From: Teretinema zuelzerae
GTDB lineage: Bacteria; Spirochaetota; Spirochaetia; Treponematales; Treponemataceae
Direction: 5' to 3'
DNA: 64,000 nt
Assembly: GCF_021021555.1 (NCBI RefSeq)
Contig: NZ_JAINWA010000003.1
Location: forward strand, 1,860,001-1,924,000
Shown: one piece after another, positions 44,569 through 52,356 of the stretch
How the letters are laid out: each line of letters begins with the position of its first letter
How positions within the stretch are numbered: position 1 is the first letter of the stretch
The notes under the pieces: generated by a model
The model's database searches: none
Told to the model about the DNA's origin: nothing
The model's input: only the letters and a program-made list of their open reading frames with translations
Made by a program: the position numbers and the translations under genes

Positions 44569-46065
44569 ATGCAGGAAAAAAACAAAACGTCGATCGATGT
44601 TGCAAAGATTAAAAAAGCTACCCGGATGGGCGTGCCCTTGTCCATTACCACCTTTACTCTTCCCCACGAGATAGAGCTCTACATCGCGGATGTGCTGTCC
44701 TATTTCCTGGAAGAAATCAATCAGGAAAAGCTGAAAGACTACCTCATTTACTGCATCAACGAACTCGCGACGAACGCGAAGAAAGCGAACACCAAGCGGG
44801 TATATTTTACGGAAAAAGAACTCGACATCAACGACGCCGGGGACTACACCGTCGGAATGTCGAAGTTTAAGGAAGACACCCTTTCAAACATCAACTACTA
44901 CCTCCAGCTCCAAAAGGAAGCCGGGTTATACGTAAAAATTGTCATGCAAGTGAAGGGAAAGGACATTCTGCTGGAAGTCCGGAACAACTCGGAGATGACG
45001 AAGGTCGAGTTCAAGCGGGTGTTCGACAAGCTCGCTCGTTCCCGCCAATTCACCTCGCTCGAAGAAGCCTTTTCACAGGTTCTGGACGACTCCGAAGGCG
45101 CGGGACTCGGCCTGGTTATCCTCATTCTCATGCTGAAAAAGGCAGGCCTCAACGACGATAACTACCAGGTGTTCGTCGAAGGCGGCGAGACGATTACCCG
45201 CATAATCATCCCGATGGACACCCAGATCGAAGAACAGGTGGCGTCTCTCACCAAAGAAATCATCGAGTACATCGACACCTTGCCGAAATTTCCCGAGAAC
45301 ATCGCCGAAATCGAAAAGCTTCTCAACGATCCGGATTCGAAAATGTCGGCGATCGCGGCCCACATCAGCAACGACGTCGCCCTTACGACGGATTTGCTGA
45401 AATTGGTAAATTCTGCGGCTTTCTCGCTCGCGAAAAAATGCACCAGCATCACCGAAGCGGTGAAGATGATCGGAATCCGCGGCATCAAGAACCTTTTGTT
45501 CTCCGTCGGAACCCTTCAGATCCTCGGACACATGTCCGACGAGCAGAAAAACCTGTGGGACCACTCCTACAAGGTGGCCTTCTATTCCTACAACCTTGCC
45601 AGAAATTTCCTGCACGACCGCATCGTCACAGAGGACGCCTACGTATGCGGACTTCTCCACGACCTGGGAAAGATCATCTTCAGCGCCCTGTATCCGGAAA
45701 CGCTGGCTAAAATGGAAGAACTGAAGCACCGGCACAACATACCGGATAAACTCTATAATGCTCTGCTTTCCGGCATGAACCATCCGGACATCGGCGCGGC
45801 CCTGGCGGAAAAGTGGAACTTCCCCCCTGCCTTGATAGCGGCGATCAAGCATCACCATTCGATCGAGACGGCTCCGGAAGAGTACCGCATGCTCGCGTCG
45901 ACCGTATGCCTTGCCGACATGCTGGTTCATTTCTCGGAAGGCGGTCTCGAATTCTACCAGATCAATCCCGAGCTTCTGGCCAAATTCAAGATAACGAACG
46001 AAGCGCACCTCACCAAGATATGCGCCGCTTTTCAGAAGGGCTTCGACGCCGAACAATCAAGATAG
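44569..46065 (+). CDS. HDOD-domain signalling protein with an N-terminal HATPase-like domain
   Basis: A 498-residue protein. The N-terminal part contains YCINELATNAKKAN (about residues 63-76), and SEGAGLGLVILILMLKKAG (about 174-192) resembles the N and G boxes of histidine-kinase-type ATPases. The C-terminal part (about 235-490) is an HDOD domain: LPKFPENIAEIEKLL, then KLVNSAAFSLAKKCTSITEAVKMIGIRGIKNLLFS, plus GLLHDLGKIIF which retains an HD pair. HDOD proteins relay signals in motility and c-di-GMP networks. This fusion suggests a switch that senses ATP or a partner. It lies 48 bp after the protease gene. Confidence 0.85.
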   Translation: MQEKNKTSIDVAKIKKATRMGVPLSITTFTLPHEIELYIADVLSYFLEEINQEKLKDYLIYCINELATNAKKANTKRVYFTEKELDINDAGDYTVGMSKFKEDTLSNINYYLQLQKEAGLYVKIVMQVKGKDILLEVRNNSEMTKVEFKRVFDKLARSRQFTSLEEAFSQVLDDSEGAGLGLVILILMLKKAGLNDDNYQVFVEGGETITRIIIPMDTQIEEQVASLTKEIIEYIDTLPKFPENIAEIEKLLNDPDSKMSAIAAHISNDVALTTDLLKLVNSAAFSLAKKCTSITEAVKMIGIRGIKNLLFSVGTLQILGHMSDEQKNLWDHSYKVAFYSYNLARNFLHDRIVTEDAYVCGLLHDLGKIIFSALYPETLAKMEELKHRHNIPDKLYNALLSGMNHPDIGAALAEKWNFPPALIAAIKHHHSIETAPEEYRMLASTVCLADMLVHFSEGGLEFYQINPELLAKFKITNEAHLTKICAAFQKGFDAEQSR

Positions 46066-46841
46066 GAAGTCCACCGTTCCATGAGGATTCCGAAGGCGAC
46101 GCCGACATTGAGCGACGCCTTCAGGCCGTACATCGGAATGGTGACCCTCCCGTAAGCTGCCTTTTTCAGCCCTTCAGGGCTCACTCCCAACTCTTCAGAC
46201 CCGATAATCACGATGCCCCTCTCGGGAAATTCGAAGTCTTCCAGCGGCGTTCCGCCGGTTTCAAGGGCGAATACCGGCAGGTCTCCGGGAAGATCGTCCA
46301 ACGACGATACGGAATGCGGAAGATAGTCTTGCGTTCCCATCGAGGACCGCACCGCGCGCGGATGAACCATCGGAGCGCACAGGGGCGACGCGTACAAACG
46401 CTCAGCTCCGAAAGCCTCGGCCGTGCGGAAAATCGAACCCAGATTGAACGGAGACCTGATGTCTTCCGCGTATACGCAAACTCCCGGAAAAAAAGGCCGG
46501 GCGGTTCTGGGGCCGTCGACAACAGCGGCGAGGCCGGCGGGAACCACGAGATCCCATTCCGCCGGAAAGGTTCCGATCGCGCCCAATAGCGCGTGGCGGG
46601 CATGGTTGCACACCCGCAGGGGATCGCGGTTTTCAGGCGGTCCGGAAACCAGAGCGGACAGCTCGTCCCGATGAACGGGATCTATCGAGGAATCCTCAAG
46701 CGCGAGCTTTACCAGCCCCCACAGATACTCCAAGTCTCCCGAACCGGCAAGAATCTGCCGCTCCAGGGTCGCGAACGACATCGCGAGCTTTCTCCTCCGC
46801 TGTCCGAACGGGAGACGATCGAGTCTATAGAGAGGAACCAT
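46032..46841 (-). CDS. SpoU/TrmH-family RNA 2'-O-methyltransferase
   Basis: A 269-residue protein with the knotted SPOUT fold. VYAEDIRSPFNLGSIFRTAEAFG (motif 1), GIVIIGSEELGVSPEGLKKA (motif 2) and VTIPMYGLKASLNVGVAFGILMER (motif 3) are all clear. It methylates a ribose in tRNA or rRNA; the site cannot be told. The ATG overlaps the stop of the upstream dehydrogenase gene (TGATG). Its 3' end overlaps the convergent HDOD gene by 34 bp. Confidence 0.9.
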   Translation of the reverse strand: MVPLYRLDRLPFGQRRRKLAMSFATLERQILAGSGDLEYLWGLVKLALEDSSIDPVHRDELSALVSGPPENRDPLRVCNHARHALLGAIGTFPAEWDLVVPAGLAAVVDGPRTARPFFPGVCVYAEDIRSPFNLGSIFRTAEAFGAERLYASPLCAPMVHPRAVRSSMGTQDYLPHSVSSLDDLPGDLPVFALETGGTPLEDFEFPERGIVIIGSEELGVSPEGLKKAAYGRVTIPMYGLKASLNVGVAFGILMERWTSYLDCSASKPF

Positions 46842-47989
46842 CAATACGCCTGCTTGATCAAATCGAAGAGGTCGTCGCTGGACATGGCGCGGGGAATGTA
46901 GTTCATCAAATCCAGGGCAGCCGCGTCTTCGGCGGCCGGAACAAGCTGGTCAATCGAAAGCCCGAGATCCTTTAACCGGGTCGGGATTCCGGAAAGAGCA
47001 AGACGGCGGCGAACATCGTCTATCGCGGCTTTCGCTCCGTCGCTGGCGCTCAAGCCAGCCGTCGAGACGCCCAGCATTTTGCCGATCGTCGCGATCCTGT
47101 CCACGCGGGCGCGGGCGGCGTCTTCCATGATATACGGCAAAAGCACGGCGCACACCAGGGAAGTCGAGGTTTTATAGCGCGCGTTGCAGGCAAGCGAAAT
47201 CGCGGTGGCCACGCCGGGAGAACTCGCCGCGACTCCCATGGACGCCATGCATCCGCCCTGGGCGATGAGCATCTCGGAAGGAGTTCCGACAAGCTTGCTC
47301 TGTTCGGGATCCAGCGCGAGAAGCAGCATTTCAATGGATTTTCCCAGAATGGTTTCCGAGAAAAAATTCGATTTCGTGGAGACATAGCCTTCGATAGCCA
47401 GGGAAATAGCGTGGAAAATCATCGAGGTCGCGGTGTTGGGCGACATGTGCATGTAGAGATTTGGATCCATCACGACGGCTTTGCAGATTCCCGCTTGAGT
47501 CTTCATCAGCCTGATCTGCCTGTTTCTGGCGTCGATGACCGGCGTCCTGTCCATGAAAACAAAGGCGTCGCGGCAGGTAGAGGGTACTTCTATAAAGGGC
47601 ATTGCGCCGGAATACGGCTGCGCTCCTGCAAGATACTCGTATATATCGTGGTTTTCGTTATACAAGGCCGCGAGCGCCCGGCCGAGAGAGGATGTTTTCG
47701 TTCCGCCCAGGGAGATGAACCCATGGACGTGAGCGCCCCGGGCAAGGGAAAGAGCTTGTTCAAGAGTAGTCGAGGTCGCGGCGGAGGGGATGTCGTCGAA
47801 CACGAATACGGAAATCCCCTTGTCTTCCAAAGCCGCTACGGCTTTTTCCACAATGCCGAACTCTTTCAGAATAGGATCGGCGATCAGCATGAAGTTGCTG
47901 CCCCAGTTCGAAGCAACCTGTCCTATTCTGGCTAACGTATGCGGCCCGAGCATGATATTGGGCGATATGCGGAAAACAAAATCTGCCAT
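46841..47989 (-). CDS. Iron-dependent alcohol dehydrogenase homologue lacking the metal ligands
   Basis: A 382-residue protein with the group III alcohol dehydrogenase fold (PNIMLGPHTLARIG, VMDPNLYMHMSPNTATS, AIEGYVSTKSN, VLLPYIMEDAA). Compared with FucO-type enzymes the first ligand block GxDALxHAIE reads IFHAISLAIE. The histidine of AHPLG is leucine (ISLAC), the HG before the LLP block is TS, and the coenzyme motif GGGSxxD is GGTKTSS. The four metal ligands therefore appear replaced. It may be a non-catalytic or altered paralogue. The start at 47989 has GAGGA upstream; the longer frame is unsupported. Confidence 0.8.
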   Translation of the reverse strand: MADFVFRISPNIMLGPHTLARIGQVASNWGSNFMLIADPILKEFGIVEKAVAALEDKGISVFVFDDIPSAATSTTLEQALSLARGAHVHGFISLGGTKTSSLGRALAALYNENHDIYEYLAGAQPYSGAMPFIEVPSTCRDAFVFMDRTPVIDARNRQIRLMKTQAGICKAVVMDPNLYMHMSPNTATSMIFHAISLAIEGYVSTKSNFFSETILGKSIEMLLLALDPEQSKLVGTPSEMLIAQGGCMASMGVAASSPGVATAISLACNARYKTSTSLVCAVLLPYIMEDAARARVDRIATIGKMLGVSTAGLSASDGAKAAIDDVRRRLALSGIPTRLKDLGLSIDQLVPAAEDAAALDLMNYIPRAMSSDDLFDLIKQAY

Positions 47990-48093: not shown

Positions 48094-48378
48094 TTATATT
48101 CCGTATACATCCATTAGCCGGTCGGCGACTATGTCCACAACCGCGTTGTTTATATAGGAGGGATCCTTGATTTTCTGCATGACTTCGGCAACACGATCCG
48201 CTCGCACGTCCGGAGCCGAAGAAGCTGCCTCGTTGGCGAAGTAGATCTCGGCTAGTTCTTTCGCTTCAGCGGAAACCGCTATCGAATCCGACTGCGAAAC
48301 CTCGCCGGTTTTCCGGGTTTTATGAGCGTTCTGAACATTGTTGACGGGGTCGATTCCCCCCAAACGGTCAATCATCAT
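48094..48378 (-). CDS. flgM: Anti-sigma-28 factor FlgM
   Basis: A 94-residue protein starting MIDRLGGIDPVNN, with an unstructured N-terminal half and a helical C-terminal half containing IAVSAEAKELAEIYF and RVAEVMQKIKDPSYINNAVVDIVADRLMDVYG. This is the sigma-binding region typical of FlgM. It holds the flagellar sigma factor inactive until hook completion. It lies 29 bp after rsmI on the same strand and about 1.4 kb from the flagellin gene. Confidence 0.88.
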   Translation of the reverse strand: MMIDRLGGIDPVNNVQNAHKTRKTGEVSQSDSIAVSAEAKELAEIYFANEAASSAPDVRADRVAEVMQKIKDPSYINNAVVDIVADRLMDVYGI

Positions 48379-48407: not shown

Positions 48408-49103
48408 TTACTCATCCGGACAAGTTGAGCTTTTTTTTCCGGAAACATACACAGAAAATTCGCCGAGAATCTTCTCCCGATCCGCGAAACTGTCCCGAAC
48501 TTCGATCGCCGTGCCTGAAACGATTTCTTCGTAGAGCTTGGTAAGCTCCCGACCGACGACAACCATCCGCTCTCCGTCTATTTCGGCAAGTTCAGTCAAA
48601 AGCTTTACAATCCGAAACGGAGATTCATATAAAACAAAACCGAATCCTGTTTCCGCCAGTTCCCGCAAACGTCCCCGGCGCCGACCCGGCCGCGGAGACA
48701 GGAAACCTTCAAATACAACCGACTTGTCGTATCCGCCGGCGACGCTCAAGAGGGTTGCGAAAGCAGACGCTCCGGGAATCGGTATAACCGCATGGCCGGC
48801 GTCGCGGGCCGCGCGAACAAGCACGGAACCGGGGTCGCTCAGCGCCGGAGTTCCCGCATCGCTCGCGTAGGCTACTTTCTGCCCTTTTTTCAGGATCTCT
48901 AAAACGCGTTTAGAGGCTTCCTCTTCATTCCGGGCGCGGCAGGACACCAGCGGCTTCCTGATGCCGAAATGGGTCAGCAGCTGCAAAGTATGGCGGGTAT
49001 CCTCGCACGCGATGACGTCCACCGTTTTGAAAGTCTCGAGAGCGCGATAGGTGATATCCCCGAGATTTCCAATAGGGGTTGCGACAATATACAGTTCTGA
49101 CAC
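48408..49103 (-). CDS. rsmI: 16S rRNA (cytidine1402-2'-O)-methyltransferase
   Basis: A 231-residue RsmI of the tetrapyrrole-methylase fold. [22 protein letters not shown] opens it, [17 protein letters not shown] and [21 protein letters not shown] follow, then [17 protein letters not shown]. This order of blocks is diagnostic. The enzyme methylates C1402 of 16S rRNA using SAM. It is shorter than the E. coli enzyme because the C-terminal extension is missing. It precedes flgM in the same direction. Confidence 0.95.
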
Positions 49104-50707: not shown

Positions 50708-50775
50708 ACGGGCAGTTTACAGCGAGTCGCGGCTCCCTCGAGCCGCGATGCCACTGTAAATTGCCCGTTTTTTTT
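50708..50775 (+). terminator. Large rho-independent terminator after flaB
   Basis: ACGGGCAGTTTACAG pairs with CTGTAAATTGCCCGT, with an inner CGCGGCT/AGCCGCG hairpin, followed by a run of eight T. Confidence 0.92.
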
Positions 50776-50793
50776 GGTATAAAGAGAGCCACT

Positions 50794-52356
50794 ATGCGCA
50801 GTTTGTCGGATCTACAGAAAAGAATACTCACGGAAGAATACCCGCATATCAGCCTCGATCACGATTCCGACGTCGAACGGTATTTCGATCTCCGCAGATC
50901 CGGCCGGCAGACAGACGCGCTCAACCTGTACAATTCAAAAATCGTTCAAAAATATCCAAAAGCGGAGCAGAGAAAGCTTCTGATTCAATATTACCGTTCG
51001 AACGATCCCCGGTTCGCGGAAATACTGCAGGAAAGCCTCGTCGAGCTCGCGGATCGGCTTTTAAACAAAACAAGATACATCATCAGTCTGCTCTCAAAAG
51101 ACATAGATACCGTAAATCTATCGGACGCCTACGCGGTAATAAGGCTCGCAGAGAACCTCCTGGCCGTAATCTCTCCCGATAGATACGCTGCCATCGGGTT
51201 CGCGGAGAAATACGCGCGATACGCAAAGCTTCTGAATTTTCAGGAAGTCCAGATGGAGCGTACGGCCGAACTGATCCGGCTGTACGTCACGGAAACCCTC
51301 GACAGCGTCCAGGAACTGAAAAAGGAGCGGGAAGAACGTCGGCGTAAAACCTTGAGGAAGCGCATCGAAGGACGAAGATTCCAGCCTAACTTCAATGTGA
51401 GCCAGATCGTGTTTTCCGCGGAAGACATAAACAAGATCCTCATACCGTCAGGAATCACCCGCATCGAGGACCAGGTAATCGCATACGCCCTGAAGTACTG
51501 GAATAAAGCGTCGGACCCGTCCTTTGAAAAAATAATTGTACTGTACAGCAAGAAATACCATACGCAGCATGCCGACATTTATCAGGCGGTAAAAAACGGG
51601 CGGGATCATGCGTGGAAGGATGAAGAAATACTCAACGCGGTTCTCGCGACGGTCGTGAAAGGCTACTATTACAGCATATCCGGAGACGCCTATCTCCAGC
51701 GCACCTGGGCGCGCTACAAGCAAAATCTCGCTCCGGCGCCGGAAGCAGAGCCGCTGCCGGCTGAGACGGAGAGCCGGACTGTTCCCCGCTCGCAGAAAAG
51801 GCCTTATACCAGGAAGGCTCCTGCCAACAAACGTCGCTTGCCTTCGAAAATTTGCAAACAAGGAAAAACAGCCGCGGCCGCCGGGATCGCGCAAATCGGA
51901 TCGTCGTCCCCGAAAAAAGAAATCCGCAGTACGCACGCGTATTCTAAACATCCGACGAGGAAGGGCGTCAGAAGCTTCATTCCGGAAGACAAGGCCCTGC
52001 GCAATGGATATACGCGAGCCGTGCCCGAAGCGCATCTTTCAAATTCGATAGCGGACATGATTAAAAAAATGACGGGAAAAACATACACGGTGTATAAGGA
52101 ACTCTTCTTTAAGAACGTGAGACCGGCTATCCGATCGGTATTATCCGCGTCATCCAGCCGAAAAGGGCTCTTTTTCGACGCAAAGCAAAACGACGCAGAA
52201 GAGCTCGTGTATCAATTTTTATTCGCGCATTACAACGATCCGTACCAGAATTGGCAGCAGAGCAGCGAATGCAAAAAGCTGAGCGATCTCGGCTATAACA
52301 TTCCCGAAATCGAACCAATCATACAATCATGGATGAAGACATCGGCGCTACAGTGA
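50794..52356 (+). CDS. Large protein of unknown function (spirochaete-type)
   Basis: A 520-residue cytoplasmic protein with a helical N-terminal part (about residues 1-190), a charged segment KKEREERRRKTLRKR, and a basic proline/alanine-rich linker (about 320-385, with KRPYTRKAPANKRR). A C-terminal helical domain follows. The basic linker suggests nucleic-acid contact, but no known domain is recognised. The start follows AGAGAG; the frame is open upstream only through the terminator. It converges on recR with a 9-bp overlap. Confidence 0.75.
   Translation: MRSLSDLQKRILTEEYPHISLDHDSDVERYFDLRRSGRQTDALNLYNSKIVQKYPKAEQRKLLIQYYRSNDPRFAEILQESLVELADRLLNKTRYIISLLSKDIDTVNLSDAYAVIRLAENLLAVISPDRYAAIGFAEKYARYAKLLNFQEVQMERTAELIRLYVTETLDSVQELKKEREERRRKTLRKRIEGRRFQPNFNVSQIVFSAEDINKILIPSGITRIEDQVIAYALKYWNKASDPSFEKIIVLYSKKYHTQHADIYQAVKNGRDHAWKDEEILNAVLATVVKGYYYSISGDAYLQRTWARYKQNLAPAPEAEPLPAETESRTVPRSQKRPYTRKAPANKRRLPSKICKQGKTAAAAGIAQIGSSSPKKEIRSTHAYSKHPTRKGVRSFIPEDKALRNGYTRAVPEAHLSNSIADMIKKMTGKTYTVYKELFFKNVRPAIRSVLSASSSRKGLFFDAKQNDAEELVYQFLFAHYNDPYQNWQQSSECKKLSDLGYNIPEIEPIIQSWMKTSALQ

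Follow-up and report, generated by a model that had tools for sequence, protein, structure and literature searches.

A gene in a 64,000-nucleotide stretch of the Teretinema zuelzerae genome (hereafter, the window) encodes a protein predicted to have the complete fold of an iron-containing alcohol dehydrogenase (Fe-ADH), in which all four metal ligands and the coenzyme loop have been replaced. Homologues with the same losses occur across the spirochaete phylum, usually in the vicinity of flgM. Because these residues have been lost and yet the gene is kept beside that of a flagellar regulator across spirochaetes, the protein probably helps to control flagella rather than taking part in alcohol chemistry. 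To our mind there is an even chance that it is an ancient spirochaete pseudoenzyme that was co-opted into the FlgM/sigma-28 system and acts by protein binding.

The open reading frame that had been picked out from the letters alone was recovered in full, with the same ends, on the minus strand. It belongs to an operon that runs, entirely on that strand, from rsmI through flgM and the pseudoenzyme gene to trmH, the ATG of trmH overlapping the stop codon of the pseudoenzyme gene (Table 1). A gene for an HDOD-domain protein (window positions 44569-46065, plus strand) is convergent with the operon and occupies the same position in many loci of the order. A 531-aa open reading frame without a Pfam match (window positions 50761-52356, plus strand) lies beside a flagellin gene and is found near the operon in several relatives.

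Table 1. Operon genes of the window and the active-site positions of the pseudoenzyme
Feature	Position in the window	Strand	Basis
SpoU/TrmH-family RNA methyltransferase (trmH)	46032..46841	-	Pfam SpoU_methylase, 100.3 bits
Fe-ADH-fold pseudoenzyme, coding sequence	46841..47989	-	ATG at 47989, stop 46843-46841, 382 aa plus stop
T276, at the FucO His277 metal-ligand position	47162..47164	-	alignments
L266, at FucO His267, not a metal ligand	47192..47194	-	alignments
T262, at the FucO His263 metal-ligand position	47204..47206	-	alignments
L197, at the FucO His200 metal-ligand position	47399..47401	-	alignments
H193, at the FucO Asp196 metal-ligand position	47411..47413	-	alignments
Former coenzyme loop GGGSxxD, now GGTKTSS (residues 95-101)	47687..47707	-	alignments
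flgM, anti-sigma-28 factor, directly upstream of the pseudoenzyme gene	48094..48378	-	Pfam FlgM, 36.6 bits
rsmI-type tetrapyrrole-methylase-family gene, upstream of flgM	48408..49103	-	Pfam TP_methylase, 104.7 bits

By fold and homology, the protein is a member of the iron-containing alcohol dehydrogenases: the Pfam profiles Fe-ADH (77 bits, cut-off 31.3) and ADH_Fe_C (68.1 bits, cut-off 27) both exceed their curated thresholds and together cover its whole length, and Fe-ADHs from the PDB match it at about 80 bits in HMMER. An AlphaFold2 model built on a 69-row alignment reached a pLDDT of 92.3 and a pTM of 0.91. With this predicted structure, Foldseek ranked Fe-ADHs first (TM about 0.9), and VIA-align, in which rows within 1 Z were treated as tied, superposed it on E. 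coli FucO (5br4) with a Z of 49.0 and an rmsd of 2.3 across 375 aligned residues at 20% identity. From the quality of the model, the Foldseek ranking and the Z score to FucO, the protein has, as modelled, the fold of a complete Fe-ADH, which agrees with the fold motifs noticed earlier in the sequence. It has the whole fold and length in common with the lactaldehyde reductase FucO and with iron-containing alcohol dehydrogenases of group III (PF00465 and PF25137), and differs from them in the replacement of all metal ligands and of the coenzyme loop.

These replacements were mapped by aligning the protein with FucO and two further Fe-ADHs in HMMER and, in MAFFT, with 21 intact Fe-ADHs. With D196, H200, H263 and H277 as the metal ligands of FucO, the D/H/H/H set has become H/L/T/T in the window protein, which also lacks the GGGSxxD loop, so that neither hallmark of an Fe-ADH working as a metal enzyme is present. 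The sequence-only reading had given the ligand set as H/L/L/T; it was right that all four are lost and wrong in the third letter, because L266 aligns with H267 of FucO, which is not a ligand. Its reading of the coenzyme loop as GGTKTSS was accurate and corresponds to residues G95-S101. Histidines at the metal site, named beforehand as the finding that would overturn the reading, did not appear, H193 being a single histidine at the former aspartate ligand.

The same losses extend to the whole family, for which we compared 101 pseudoenzyme homologues from across the spirochaete phylum with 21 intact Fe-ADH paralogues. Sixty of the 101 members keep none of the metal ligands, 38 keep one and 3 (L091, L062 and L100) keep two, so that the full set occurs in 0/101 members as opposed to 21/21 paralogues; the coenzyme motif (G97-S98-D101) is likewise found in none of the 101, nor is D101 by itself. 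Given this complete separation between members and intact paralogues, the replacement of ligands and motif is not due to chance. Judging from the residues, dehydrogenase chemistry has very probably been lost.

The residues that now occupy the former active site lend themselves to an alternative that we consider unlikely, namely, that the protein is a repurposed enzyme or small-molecule sensor whose charged cleft residues (K/R98, R140, D/N141 and K/R276) bind an anionic ligand or allow catalysis without a metal. In its favour, K or R occupies position 98 in 75/101 members, R occupies position 140 in 70/101 and K or R occupies position 276, the former last histidine, in 64/101, whereas every one of the 21 intact paralogues carries S, G and H, respectively, at these positions; moreover, R338 is present in 91% of the members and in 0/21 paralogues. 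However, none of the new residues is invariant, and in the outer lineages (L101-L123) they drift; the window protein itself carries T276. Moreover, most positions with complete or almost complete conservation (G15, G95 and D175) are common to the intact enzymes too. Links among positions 98, 140 and 141 received no support from phylogenetically independent pairs. At position 193, 64/101 members have D or E, the equivalent of Asp196 being retained in 37/101, and an acid at 193 is combined with a base at 276 in 53/101 (D-K in 32, E-R in 15, E-K in 5 and D-R in 1). This combination suggests that a salt bridge might take the place of the metal in part of the family, the window itself having H193/T276; it stays a suggestion because the phylogenetically independent pairs did not support covariation of the two positions (5 contrasts, median p 0.625).

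The gene is widespread among spirochaetes. It was found in 11 of the 12 genomes of the window's genus, at 81-100% identity, and 224 of the 245 genomes of the family had a match at E<=1e-40. In the order, 143/194 genomes matched at E<=1e-25, one match (genome G274, locus L060) being an intact Fe-ADH, which leaves 142 genomes carrying the pseudoenzyme; among the matches listed in the order profile search, members and fragments scored at least 224 bits and everything else at most 185 bits. A single-sequence scan of contigs returned 10 loci, all titled as spirochaetes, and when 296 genomes of the phylum were searched with a profile, the pseudoenzyme was detected far outside the order. We took 40 loci from these matches and as intact controls: 32 of them, scoring 192-376 bits, lack the ligands and the motif, and 8, at 161-191 bits, are intact Fe-ADHs; because the two score ranges almost touch at 190, we give no phylum-wide total. 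More diverged copies (98-141 bits) lie directly after flgM in four further loci (L133, L136, L137 and L138), in genomes that were negative at the cut-off of the phylum profile.

In a 97-row tree (a quick search including some long rows), the pseudoenzyme sequences form one side of a branch with an SH-aLRT of 100, and the sub-branches follow the host families; at the level of sequence, the tree shows a single origin of the family. Within the window's genus, dN/dS was 0.04-0.07 in the 6 of 10 congener comparisons in which dS was finite, values obtained near saturation of dS, and the closest congener pair, with a dS of 0.96, gave a dN/dS of 0.04. The gene is therefore maintained under strong purifying selection, and the low dN/dS, the intact frames and the phylum-wide conservation rule out a decaying pseudogene. 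Loss of the active-site residues, combined with a fold and a gene maintained by selection, marks the protein as a probable pseudoenzyme.

The genomic neighbourhood links the gene to flgM. In 66 of the 69 order loci, the window included, rsmI and flgM lie upstream, and trmH lies downstream in 61; of the 32 pseudoenzyme loci outside the order, 25 are preceded by rsmI and/or flgM and 5 are followed by trmH. The remaining 7/32 loci (L111-L113, L116 and L118-L120) show neither rsmI, flgM nor trmH as a neighbour. In these counts, short locus flanks and single-sequence neighbour queries may conceal neighbours. In two loci, L134 (genome G257) and L135 (genome G294), rsmI, flgM and trmH are continuous, the pseudoenzyme gene is missing and the flgM stop is separated from the next open frame by 13-15 bases. 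These are natural deletions in flagellated genomes, which implies that flagella can do without the pseudoenzyme. Beyond the divergence of rsmI, the pseudoenzyme co-diverges with flgM (partial r 0.48) and with trmH (partial r 0.57); because the trmH control is no weaker, co-divergence does not single out FlgM, and we discarded it as a sign of a specific flgM link.

Presence of the gene follows that of flagella. Flagellin was detected in 175/194 genomes of the order sample, and the pseudoenzyme gene in 142/175 flagellin-positive compared with 0/19 flagellin-negative genomes. All 19 flagellin-less genomes belong to one group (f3), whose flagellin-positive genomes carry the gene in 11/11 cases, so the association reflects few independent losses. 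The next gene of the operon, trmH, is kept in 18/19 of the flagellin-less f3 genomes; hence, the pseudoenzyme gene is missing there although the region as a whole has not been lost. The gene is not universal in genomes with a FlgM/sigma-28 system: the 33/175 flagellin-positive order genomes without it include G030 (1.1 Mb), G305 and many of group f5, and several of the 33 still keep flgM. In the phylum sample, FlgM was found in 241/296 and flagellin in 281/296 genomes, and one group (f7, 30 genomes as we counted them) has flagellin and neither FlgM nor the pseudoenzyme gene. Two genomes of group f10 (G570 and G590) have FlgM-like matches (E about 1e-27) and no flagellin match. A sigma-28-like promoter was sought in the window and not found, CCGATAA occurring 8 times against 12.8 expected and a further search returning 0.

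Co-occurrence with flagellin, together with a full fold that has conserved C-terminal residues, would also suit a protein that, instead of regulating, forms part of the periplasmic flagellum or its export apparatus or helps in their assembly. We hold this to be improbable, as the linkage is to flgM and not to structural flagellar operons, and the gene is lacking from those 33 flagellated genomes of the order. There is similarly little to recommend a role in ribosome modification, in which the protein would partner the adjacent RNA methyltransferases and flgM would be a mere operon neighbour. The overlap of the stop codon with the trmH start in the window, the position of trmH as the next gene in most order loci and the co-divergence with trmH, as strong as that with flgM, are all consistent with such a partnership, as are three of the 69 order loci (L041, L042 and L080, from genus g15), in which the gene sits beside trmH, away from flgM. 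Against this, the flagellin-less f3 genomes nearly all keep trmH and none has the gene, and a trmH neighbour is missing in 8/69 order loci and in 27/32 outside the order. The fold, the Pfam match and the partly retained Asp196 equivalent might point to an ordinary Fe-ADH whose metal site is unusual. That reading is ruled out on the residues, with at most two of the four ligands in any of the 101 members and the coenzyme motif in none, and has next to no probability.

We therefore return to co-option into the FlgM/sigma-28 system. The intact fold, the family-wide residue loss, the purifying selection and the flgM linkage uphold the suggestion, already made from the sequence, that an enzyme gave rise to a binding or regulatory protein, and flgM linkage and co-occurrence with flagella suggest that it serves the FlgM/FliA system by binding. 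A group-III (iron) metal- and NAD-dependent alcohol dehydrogenase would have been captured beside flgM before the spirochaete families split, would then have lost its metal site and coenzyme loop, and would have been retained as a folded protein working by binding. Most likely, it would sit in the cytoplasm as an accessory to the FlgM/FliA (sigma-28) switch that controls the periplasmic flagella, its putative binding of FlgM, FliA or another flagellar regulator tuning the level of free sigma-28. We infer that the protein works through binding and that its partner is FlgM or FliA, and the regulatory mechanism with them. The sharper proposal, that this dead dehydrogenase is a third component of the spirochaete sigma-28/FlgM switch and holds FlgM or FliA, is one that we advance tentatively and would not ourselves bet on.

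The FlgM/FliA switch of Treponema denticola is relevant here, since flgM is the conserved upstream neighbour of the pseudoenzyme gene. FlgM of T. denticola is TDE0201 and opposes FliA (PMC9481697), and TDE0200 is a tetrapyrrole methylase (PMC3914990). Because the two are consecutive in number, the same operon is likely to exist in T. denticola, which would then share the rsmI-flgM-pseudoenzyme gene order. A review describes T. denticola FlgM as unusual in that it stabilises FliA and in that its loss lowers flagellin expression (PMC12655853); a dehydrogenase holding FlgM or FliA, if real, could explain both effects. The accessible text on T. denticola FlgM/FliA (PMC9481697, PMC12655853) makes no mention of a dehydrogenase-fold component, and a full-text literature search, with most subscription papers outside its coverage, returned no account of such a protein. 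If the pseudoenzyme acts on FlgM or FliA, it would supply a component so far missing from the control of periplasmic flagella, for which the loss of the gene in some flagellated lineages provides natural comparisons.

The nearest precedent for a regulatory Fe-ADH is ErcA / YiaY of Pseudomonas, likewise a protein of this fold that has been given a regulatory role, in ethanol oxidation (PMC12997753). There, ercA and a hybrid histidine kinase gene are co-cistronic, whereas the same-strand neighbours of the pseudoenzyme gene are rsmI, flgM and trmH, and no hybrid histidine kinase gene adjoins it in the window. A score of 96 bits against the NCBIfam ErcA profile (NF041833, cut-off 550) rules out orthology. 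In many spirochaete genomes, profile-based annotation would label this gene as an alcohol dehydrogenase, carrying false metabolism into models. Against the lactaldehyde reductase profile of NCBIfam, the pseudoenzyme scores 115, the cut-off being 523.
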